Assembly (NCBI GenBank): GCA_902796875.1
Contig: CADBQT010000156.1
Span: 1 to 15,671, forward strand
Origin: an uncultured Eubacteriales bacterium
GTDB lineage: Bacteria; Bacillota; Clostridia; Peptostreptococcales; Anaerovoracaceae
Reading direction: 5' to 3'
DNA: 15,671 nt
Under the pieces are notes generated by a model, which saw only the letters and a list, made by a program, of their open reading frames with translations, ran no database searches and was not told the DNA's origin. Made by a program: the position numbers and the translations under genes. Shown one piece after another: positions 1,991-3,146 of the stretch. Numbering within the stretch: position 1 is the first letter of the stretch; every line of letters begins with the position of its first letter.

Positions 1991-2407
1991 ATGAAGTCAT
2001 ACAAAAAAGAACTGCATTTCAACGTTCCCACCCGACGGGCCCTGGTGAACATCACCAGTCAGGTCCAGGAGGCCATCGACGAGAGCGGCGTGAAAGAGGG
2101 GCTCTGTCTGATCAACCCCATGCACATCACCGCCAGCGTGATCATCAACGATGATGAAGCGGGACTGCACCGGGACTACGAGCGTCTGCTGGAGCGGCTG
2201 GTTCCGGAAAAGCCCTACGAACAGTACGACCACAACGGGTTTGAAGACAATGCGGATGCCCATCTGAAGCGGAGCCTCATGGGACGGGAATCCGTGGTGG
2301 CCATCACCGACGGCCGGCTTGATTTCGGCACCTGGGAACAGATATTCTATTACGAGTTCGACGGCAAGCGGGACAAGCGGCTGCTGATCAAGATCATCGG
2401 GGAGTAA
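1991..2407 (+). CDS. yjbQ: YjbQ / UPF0047 family protein
   Basis: Small soluble protein of 138 residues from the widespread YjbQ (COG0432, UPF0047) family. Members have been linked to a weak, secondary thiamine-phosphate synthase activity; the physiological role is unsettled. The family's conserved metal/ligand-site motifs are all present: [35 protein letters not shown], and the C-terminal [20 protein letters not shown] followed by [11 protein letters not shown]. Length is normal for the family. The start at 1991 is chosen because AAAGGAGG (1978-1985) sits at ideal spacing and the protein starts right before the conserved first strand. An in-frame upstream ATG at 1916 would begin within the divergent promoter and is rejected. 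The gene has its own promoter and no clear terminator before the ncRNA unit downstream. Family identification is secure, biochemical function is not. Confidence 0.9.
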
Positions 2408-2479
2408 AGCAGATCCCGGTGAAGGGACTCGCAGAAAAAGGAGATACATAAAAACAACAATATACATGAGCAAACCCCC

Positions 2480-2507
2480 TTGATTTATTCAGATGAAGTG
2501 CTAAACT
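2480..2507 (+). promoter_or_regulatory. Promoter of the putative non-coding RNA
   Basis: TTGATT (-35, 2480-2485), 16-bp spacer, TAAACT (-10, 2502-2507) directly preceded by TGC, making an extended -10. An AT-rich stretch upstream (2443-2467) could act as an UP-like element. Initiation is predicted near G2514. Confidence 0.6.
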
Positions 2508-2513
2508 ATAGTT

Positions 2514-2885
2514 GCGAGAGGGGGAAGCCCCCTCGATGAAATAGATCCAGCCGGAGGCTGGGGGCCATCCACCGAAGAGCCCGATAAGACAGGAGAGGAT
2601 CTCTGGACGGAAACAGGCGAGCAGGAGCCTGAGGGAAGTGGGAGAGAAGGCCGGTCGACGGGAGGTAAGTGAAGAACAGAGAGTGGTGCGGGGTGGCAAG
2701 GACAACTGAATAGAGAAGCCGAAAACACAGATGGAAACGGCGGCGATGGCGGTGCGCAAGGCAGCGGGGCGCCGGAGCAGAGAAGCCGGGACGACGGAAA
2801 GGAAGTGATTGATGTGAGGGTGTTGATGGTAGATAAGTAAGGGGCTGCGGTGTACTGGATAGTAGGTCGCAGCCCTTGTTTTTTT
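2514..2885 (+). ncRNA. Putative ~370-nt structured non-coding RNA, family not recognised
   Basis: This fills most of the 583-bp gap between yjbQ and the next gene. It is bounded by an extended -10 promoter upstream and a strong intrinsic terminator at its end, and no plus-strand ORF longer than about 25 codons with a ribosome binding site lies inside. The predicted RNA opens with a GC hairpin (GAGGGGG-AAG-CCCCCTC, 2518-2534), followed by CCAGCC-GGA-GGCTGG (2547-2561), AGAG-GAT-CTCT (about 2594-2604) and CAGGC-N8-GCCTG (2614-2631). The part from about 2630 to 2840 is strikingly purine-rich with few pyrimidines, and GACGGAAA occurs twice (starting near 2606 and 2793). I looked for RNase P RNA core motifs (GAGGAAAGTCC, ACAGAAA), a tmRNA tag and acceptor end, and the SRP GGAAGGAAGCAGC loop and do not see them. 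It could be a divergent member of a known large bacterial RNA class or a new one. The non-coding assignment is inference from promoter, terminator and lack of ORFs. Confidence 0.55.
2839..2885 (+). terminator. Rho-independent terminator of the ncRNA
   Basis: The stem GGGCTGCG (2842-2849) pairs with CGCAGCCC (2868-2875). Inside it, TACT-GGAT-AGTA (2853-2864) forms a second stem joined through G-U pairs, so the whole is an almost continuous hairpin. It is followed by TTGTTTTTTT (2876-2885). Confidence 0.88.
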
Positions 2886-2913
2886 GCTGTTTAGGAGAAG
2901 AGTCAATTACAAC

Positions 2914-2942
2914 TTGGCAAACGGTGGAAAATATCGTATAGT
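2914..2942 (+). promoter_or_regulatory. Promoter of the 51-residue membrane protein gene
   Basis: TTGGCA (2914-2919), 17-bp spacer, TATAGT (2937-2942): a near-consensus sigma-A promoter placed just after the ncRNA terminator. Initiation near 2949 leaves a leader of about 42 nt before the ATG at 2991. Confidence 0.75.
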
Positions 2943-2990
2943 ATGGCATGTAGTGAGAAACAGTAAAGAACTGCAGGAACGGAGGACGAG

Positions 2991-3146
2991 ATGAGCAGTA
3001 AGAAAACCAGGAAGAATACCAGAAACGAAAACGATTATGAATTTCGGAGCCACCATTCGCCGGTGAAGGTGTGGGTGGTTCGGATCGTGGTGGTCCTGCT
3101 CTGTGTCGCCGTCGCCGTCACTCTGATCCCGTCGGTGTTCTTCTAA
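2991..3146 (+). CDS. Small basic single-pass membrane protein (51 aa), function unknown
   Basis: A 51-residue ORF starts at an ATG preceded by GGAGG (2981-2985) with 5-nt spacing and has its own near-consensus promoter. The protein has a strongly basic N-terminus (MSSKKTRKNTRN), a short polar stretch (ENDYEFRSHHSP) and one hydrophobic segment at residues 27-50 (VWVVRIVVVLLCVAVAV...), ending TLIPSVFF. By the positive-inside rule the basic end should face the cytoplasm, with the membrane segment at the extreme C-terminus. It has no signal-peptidase site or lipobox. I do not recognise a family. It is monocistronic or nearly so: the next intrinsic terminator is at 3265-3294. A role with the flanking RNA or the Crp-like regulator is possible but not shown. 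Confidence 0.7.
   Translation: MSSKKTRKNTRNENDYEFRSHHSPVKVWVVRIVVVLLCVAVAVTLIPSVFF

Follow-up and report, generated by a model that had tools for sequence, protein, structure and literature searches.

Genes and features at the locus

The window (the whole stretch of DNA that was analysed, 15,671 nucleotides) contains a predicted transcript between a gene of the UPF0047/yjbQ family and a 51-codon frame. The coordinates are collected in Table 1. The 51-codon frame had no Pfam match; the C-terminal half of its product is hydrophobic, and a promoter-like sequence precedes it.

Table 1. Positions in the window of the transcript, its parts and its neighbours
Feature	Position	Strand	Basis
UPF0047/yjbQ family gene, upstream neighbour	1991..2404		Pfam
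Conserved upstream box TACATAAAAACAACAATA	2445..2462	+	pattern matches in genus; possible UP element or regulator site
Promoter: -35 TTGATT (2480-2485), 16-nt spacer, TGC extended -10, TAAACT (2502-2507)	2480..2507	+	read from sequence
Predicted transcript, ~372 nt	2514..2886	+	positions of promoter and terminator
5' hairpin GAGGGGG-AAG-CCCCCUC	2518..2534	+	folding; predicted in 13-sequence alignment
Second hairpin CCAGCC-GGA-GGCUGG	2547..2561	+	sequence and folding
Repeated sequence GACGGAAA	2606 and 2793		
Conserved motif ACAACTGAATA	2702..2712	+	exact in 9/13 short-form copies
Putative Shine-Dalgarno sequence AAAGGAAG	2798..2805	+	purine-rich; near-constant spacing across aligned copies
Eight-codon frame MRVLMVDK-stop, GTG start	2814..2840	+	peptide-level conservation, synonymous changes
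Intrinsic terminator, stem GGGCUGCG/CGCAGCCC, loop, T-run	2841..2886	+	folding, covariation
Promoter-like TTGGCA-N17-TATAGT	2914..2942		
51-codon frame, downstream neighbour	2991..3146		no Pfam match

The sequence-only reading had described a self-contained, purine-rich, non-coding transcription unit with an extended -10 promoter, GC hairpins near the 5' end, a G/A-rich stretch, a repeated sequence and a strong terminator hairpin with a T-run. These elements were found again on inspection. The promoter was read directly in the sequence, and a similar layout recurs in relatives behind the upstream box; the window promoter itself scores under the cut of a consensus promoter scanner. The purine content of the body is 0.71, the peak of the 15.7 kb in 280-nt sliding windows on either strand. 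The window terminator was not listed by a terminator scanner, which counts only loops of 3-8. The box pattern (at most one mismatch) occurred in 25 of 49 genomes of the genus, at 34 places vs 11 for a control read backward, and 16 of the 18 exact matches precede a copy of this RNA.

Folding of the whole unit gave a z score of -3.2 (0/100 shuffles as low), and the window body without its terminator gave -2.9 (0/60). Excess folding was clear in few copies: no shuffle was as low for 3/13 short-form bodies, the window's included, and none of five long-form bodies was clear, four being no better than shuffles and the fifth having 1/25 as low. In the 13-sequence alignment, the 5' hairpin showed one both-sided change at each of 3/5 pairs, with up to four sequences broken. 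In eight sequences the 5' end was predicted to pair over a long distance with the Shine-Dalgarno region, without covariation. As judged from its promoter, its covarying terminator and its conservation, the stretch from about 2514 to 2886 looks like a promoter-to-terminator RNA unit kept in relatives, self-contained as had been proposed.

Distribution of the RNA

The nucleotide search in relatives that the earlier reading had suggested found copies in 9 of 41 genomes, the window's own included, all of one genus. A frame-based pattern matched 24 stretches among the genomes of 84,980 species, all of them uncultured MAGs (Clostridia, Clostridiales, Eubacteriales, Firmicutes, Bacillota). An order-wide pattern search matched 14/393 genomes, 13 of them in the genus; the only match outside it, in G077, had two mismatches and was judged to be chance.

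A covariance model built from 25 copies matched 29 of the 49 genus genomes at E <1e-14, at 33 places and at most two per genome. Two further genus genomes, G404 and G023 (E 0.0095), gave weak matches, and that of G404 held no such frame on reading. Since 20/49 genus genomes, some of them nearly complete, were without a strong match, the RNA appears to be dispensable. In one of these, G288, a possible copy is cut off by a contig end. In a family-wide search with the model, 43/296 genomes matched: 12 genus genomes with strong matches and 31 genomes with weak ones, the best at E 3e-6. The frame was looked for at 19 of the weak loci, one of them in the genus itself. The single look-alike, MRVQIINEK at L115, was taken as chance: it follows another gene's end, and neither an RNA body nor a clear Shine-Dalgarno sequence was seen there. 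Matches outside the genus were weak and, among those seen, terminator-like. Judged from these searches, the RNA family appears restricted to one genus, with no convincing copy outside.

An origin from phage, plasmid or virus was also considered and set aside: no copy was found in phage or plasmid collections (window sequence, blastn) or in viral contigs (frame pattern).

Terminator and eight-codon frame

Covariation analysis of the copies gave a divided result: the terminator covaries in relatives, and outside it and the repeats described below covariation is scant. In the aligned copies 98.2% of 274 terminator cells were paired, 26 cells had both sides changed and the covariation score was 0.33 vs 0.16, each reached by 0/500 shuffles, which ignore the kinship of the copies here and for the repeats. 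Pairs changed on both sides numbered 5/11, as many as in 18/500 shuffles, and the pair types were reached by 69/500. When the partner was slid along, pairing fell to 31-46%.

The frame surfaced when the DNA-similar copies were lined up: eight codons preceded by a Shine-Dalgarno sequence, with the stop touching the terminator stem. The sequence-only reading stated that the unit is not filled by any coding frame with a ribosome binding site; this is literally true, but a frame of eight codons with such a site lies inside and had been overlooked. In the window it reads GTG AGG GTG TTG ATG GTA GAT AAG TAA. Twenty-five of 28 reference copies were aligned; L022 (no start codon) and L023 and L031 (near-duplicates) were omitted. 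L022 (genome G016) appears to be a remnant, in which the start codon reads AAG and no promoter box was found; its upstream sequence looks, by eye, like the tail of a protein gene. The consensus of the aligned copies was MR[VK]L[MQR][VIFG][DN][KR], with 22 distinct frames and 12 peptides. The start codons were ATG (13), GTG (9) and TTG (3), and the stop codons TAA (23), TAG (1) and TGA (1). L112 encodes MRVLRLDN, with DN at the end, and L113, read by eye, has one additional in-frame codon (MWRVLQIDR). The peptides may resemble the start of response regulators (MRVLVVDD) and macrolide-linked peptides.

Among the 22 distinct frames, 473 of 942 codon differences (50%) were synonymous; column shuffles gave a mean of 18% and a maximum of 46% (0/3000 as high as 50%). 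With all 25 copies the count was 606/1211 in the frame, and 92/1119 and 148/1292 in the other two frames. Because several of the 25 copies had been found by a pattern that fixed AGG and the codon families at positions 4, 7 and 8, the test was repeated on 15 copies found without the frame as query (located through DNA similarity, the promoter box or the covariance model), which gave 43% synonymous differences vs 16% in shuffles (5/5000 as high). By this comparison the frame is selected at the peptide level and, as the codon pattern indicates, translated, which goes against the description of the unit as non-coding. UGAGG at the frame start is invariant in the alignment, where some of the copies had been found by a pattern that favours it, and this would suit a purely non-coding RNA whose apparent frame is no more than a conserved motif read by chance. 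We consider that reading very improbable, given the codon-wise pattern of change, the in-frame insertion and the interchange of start and stop codons.

The codons of the frame tend to be rare. The AGG codon is constant in the aligned copies, though the search pattern demanded it for part of the set. Leucine is encoded by TTG, TTA or CTA in 23/25 copies, and these make up 10/255 leucine codons in five genes of the window. The codon-usage percentile of the frame, with the neighbouring genes as the only control, was at most 0.026 in 8/14 copies and 0.09-0.41 in the other six. This bias could be explained by low structure near the start codon.

Short and long forms of the RNA

The copies have two architectures, which share the frame and terminator and mostly the promoter box. 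The short form, to which the window copy belongs, is about 300-370 nt long, with the 5' hairpin and a CCUG/CAGG hairpin without covariation, and 9/13 copies contain ACAACUGAAUA. The long form repeats one hairpin at a spacing of about 55 nt, 7-11 times in the ten copies that have a promoter box (L051, L053, L037, L035, L033, L036, L054, L055, L066 and L057). At L051:5830-6555, L037:5600-6400 and L035 (minus strand) the RNA consists mostly of head-to-tail repeats with a conserved loop, AGAAUNGNAGAA. The motif YTTGAAAA (CTTTGAAAA or CCTTGAAAA) was present at 7/9 long-form 5' ends and in 0/2 other copies compared.

The repeat units were chosen by their loop, AGAATNGNAGAA, so the invariance of the loop is built in. 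When units were chosen again by flank and 5' stem in eight copies, 62/77 matches carried the loop and the other 15 read as the 3' arms of the preceding hairpin. In 58 distinct units, 94.8% of the stem cells were paired and 39 cells were changed on both sides (each 0/500 shuffles as high). Only two of the four pairs covary, and the innermost is broken in 12 units; neither changed pairs nor pair types were more numerous than in shuffles (389/500 and 491/500 as high). As far as such comparison goes, the hairpin repeats show selection on the RNA in the long form, and they hint that this RNA may have a separate function, by base pairing or protein binding.

These bodies bear on the reading that the unit is a plain peptide gene, its eight-residue peptide (a signal or the precursor of a small modified peptide) being the sole product and the rest a long 5' UTR. 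The peptide is well conserved and the body varies in length and kind, as that reading would have it. The covarying repeats, however, speak for selection on the RNA too, and of the genes compared or scanned none for a modifying enzyme or exporter consistently accompanied the RNA; we regard a plain peptide gene as unlikely.

Control of expression

A CodY-like operator (AATTTTCWGAAAATT, 12-14/15 matches) was found in the promoter region of 10 of the 15 copies without repeats. Nine of these sites were matched by at most 3/300 shuffles and that of L060 by 12/300, the ten copies being related and not ten independent cases. In L110 and L112 the box is missing; their promoter regions were delimited by hand, and short-form status was assumed. 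The gene for CodY is present in 46/49 genus genomes. Given these sites and the presence of CodY, a number of copies are probably induced by starvation. The window copy, which had no CodY-like site (9/15 matches, 227/300 shuffles as good), is probably controlled otherwise. The site was also absent from L002, L003, L018 and L020 (8-10/15) and from ten further copies, mostly of the long form (8-11/15). G288 has two CodY genes (C4 and C31). CodY scores were lower in several long-form genomes (G004, G007, G013, G014, G019 and G020 among them) and not in G003, G006 and G017.

The box TACATAAAAASAACAA also precedes the gene of a 68-aa protein (MSVKDRMEQAELEAER...) in G002 (L067:1190-1518, minus strand) and the start of a similar-looking gene in G375 (L069, minus strand), and from these occurrences it may mark a small regulon. 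A search for the 68-aa protein in the 49 genomes found only G002 itself and a weak, stop-ridden match in G021, and for this reason no regulon was built around the box.

Genomic surroundings and possible attenuation

At 18 copies a downstream frame, in each case among the longest there, was scanned against Pfam, and 15 had a match over the cut-off. These were of 14 kinds: PALP, POR_N, ABC transporter (two copies), disulphide reductase with TusA and rhodanese, PNPOx, TGT, CpsB, LysR, DUF1848, amino-acid permease, 4HBT, CmpB, MFS and PHP. Ten of the 15 genes are co-directional with the RNA and five convergent. Long-form copies share one neighbourhood, flanked on one side by a gene for a class IV aminotransferase and on the other by a gene pair for an amino-acid kinase and an aldehyde dehydrogenase, probably proB-proA; there the RNA and box have one orientation in L053, L066 and their kin and the reverse in L035 and L037. 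Such mixed neighbours and orientations would fit a gene that acts in trans, and read-through into co-directional neighbours could occur as well. Control in cis of one pathway was dismissed, the downstream genes being unrelated, as was a type III toxin-antitoxin RNA, no downstream gene being constant among those scanned.

The main rival is attenuation of the downstream genes by a leader peptide. A ribosome finishing the frame would cover the terminator stem and allow read-through; slowing at the rare AGG and UUR codons would let the terminator form. The geometry fits, as the stop codon adjoins the stem in the aligned copies, and so do the rare codons of the eight copies with the lowest percentiles; the excess of co-directional neighbours is also what a cis role would give. 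Against it, the downstream genes have no evident common function or pathway, a third of them are convergent, and a body of 300-850 nt with repeats is superfluous for attenuation. Several co-directional neighbours also show a separate extended -10 directly after the T-run, a weak argument because its score was matched by at most 10/200 shuffles in 4/13 only. On balance we hold attenuation to be rather improbable.

Unlinked positions between species and the inverted orientation at the shared locus would also be expected of a non-autonomous mobile element that carries a promoter and a terminator. Yet there are only one or two strong places per genome and none in the phage, plasmid and viral collections, and the window copy has at its two ends an inverted repeat of just 8 nt, which was not found by eye in L037. 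This reading is unsupported, and we give it hardly any credence.

Proposed function

Comparison among relatives demonstrates the unit, its copies, the covarying terminator and selection on the peptide. The RNA has what marks a dual-function sRNA: a promoter and terminator of its own, as judged from sequence and conservation, and a conserved frame with a ribosome binding site under selection. We lean, with some reserve, towards a stand-alone, genus-restricted RNA gene of a new family that encodes a peptide and has a dual function. This reading was put first because selection acts on the peptide in both forms and on the RNA hairpins in the long form.

For such a dual-function RNA the following course can be proposed. 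The RNA would be made, in a number of relatives, upon release of CodY, i.e. under nutrient limitation. Its purine-rich body would fold, in some relatives into an array of near-identical hairpin-loop sites, and the YTTGAAAA motif of the long form, which is boxA-like, could carry polymerase through the untranslated RNA. Ribosomes would bind at the Shine-Dalgarno sequence and translate the eight codons, some of them rare, as far as the stop. By the geometry of the alignment and the size of a ribosome footprint, the 5' arm of the terminator stem would then be covered. The body together with the peptide, or with the ribosome held there, may then act in trans. A starvation-linked RNA of this kind, with a hairpin array and an eight-codon frame that holds a ribosome at the terminator, would be a ribosome-coupled scaffold or decoy, with the octapeptide as part of the switch. 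We offer this more specific version tentatively and think it unlikely; if it is true, the octapeptide is among the shortest conserved free-standing coding sequences.

Frames so short are usually ignored by gene finders. The genus-wide comparison shows eight residues under selection within an RNA that one would otherwise take for non-coding; their geometry to the terminator is fixed and the body is swappable. This offers a concrete case for the minimal size of a conserved coding sequence and for RNA-peptide genes in uncultured gut bacteria.

Comparison with known RNAs and peptide genes

The family had been called unrecognised, and this was borne out by Rfam: no family, raiA, OLE, ROOL, 6S and SRP included, reached the gathering threshold in the window, and none did so on the RNA at 25 loci of relatives. 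A permissive scan of 2350-3000 (up to E 10) gave a single match, to a snoRNA at 2414-2467; it lies outside the transcript and is put down to chance. At the relatives' loci, a lysine riboswitch and a piece of a group II intron lay elsewhere than on the RNA, and a sub-threshold mir-7 match (E 0.49) at L076 lay on the strand opposite to the RNA copy. RNase P RNA was rejected as a candidate, with no type A or B match at the locus; type A was over the cut-off in 36/49 genus genomes, and this RNA is present in many of those too. Neither type was found in the draft genome of the window itself, probably through an assembly gap. tmRNA was rejected likewise, with no match at the locus and the tmRNA of this genome elsewhere (G000:C115). 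With the large RNAs of Firmicutes (raiA, OLE, ROOL, 6S, RNase P and tmRNA) the unit has in common its size class and its isolation as a transcription unit.

CsrB/RsmZ-type RNAs are sponges of repeated hairpins with GGA loops. Like them, the long form repeats one hairpin many times, keeps the loop conserved and ends in an intrinsic terminator, but its loop is AGAAUNGNAGAA and not GGA. A CsrA sponge, which the GGA-rich sequence had suggested, was rejected: CsrA is present in 1/49 genus genomes, and not in the window's own.

The boxA of rRNA operons is an antitermination motif, and the YTTGAAAA of the long-form 5' ends may resemble it. The short form differs in having ACAACTGAATA in mid-RNA. TTGAAAACTGAATA occurs in an L. 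delbrueckii PCR primer (PMC4739695). This primer probably sits in the rRNA spacer.

The sRNA peptides and frames compared are longer than the present one: VcdP has 29 residues (PMC8672173), and a survey gives sRNA frames of 10-50 residues (PMC5521070). Nearest in size to the eight-codon frame, among what was found in the literature, is the microcin C gene mccA, with 7 codons (MRTGNAN) and among the shortest known (PMC11241378). The two genes are of similar size and share the MR start; they differ in sequence beyond MR, and the C-terminal residue here is mostly K or R, not N. An adenylating enzyme of the mccB type was absent among the downstream genes scanned. Searches of the accessible papers showed no description of this element and none of the four peptide strings sought.

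Like the dual-function sRNAs SR1/SR1P, SgrS/SgrT, VcdRP and RNAIII/hld, the unit stands alone between a promoter and a terminator that belong to it and contains a small conserved frame preceded by a Shine-Dalgarno sequence. It differs from them in that the frame has eight codons and abuts the terminator, and in that the body is variable, with a hairpin array in some relatives. Peptide-encoding sRNAs are a known kind, and a genus-conserved eight-codon frame locked to a terminator is an extreme of that kind.
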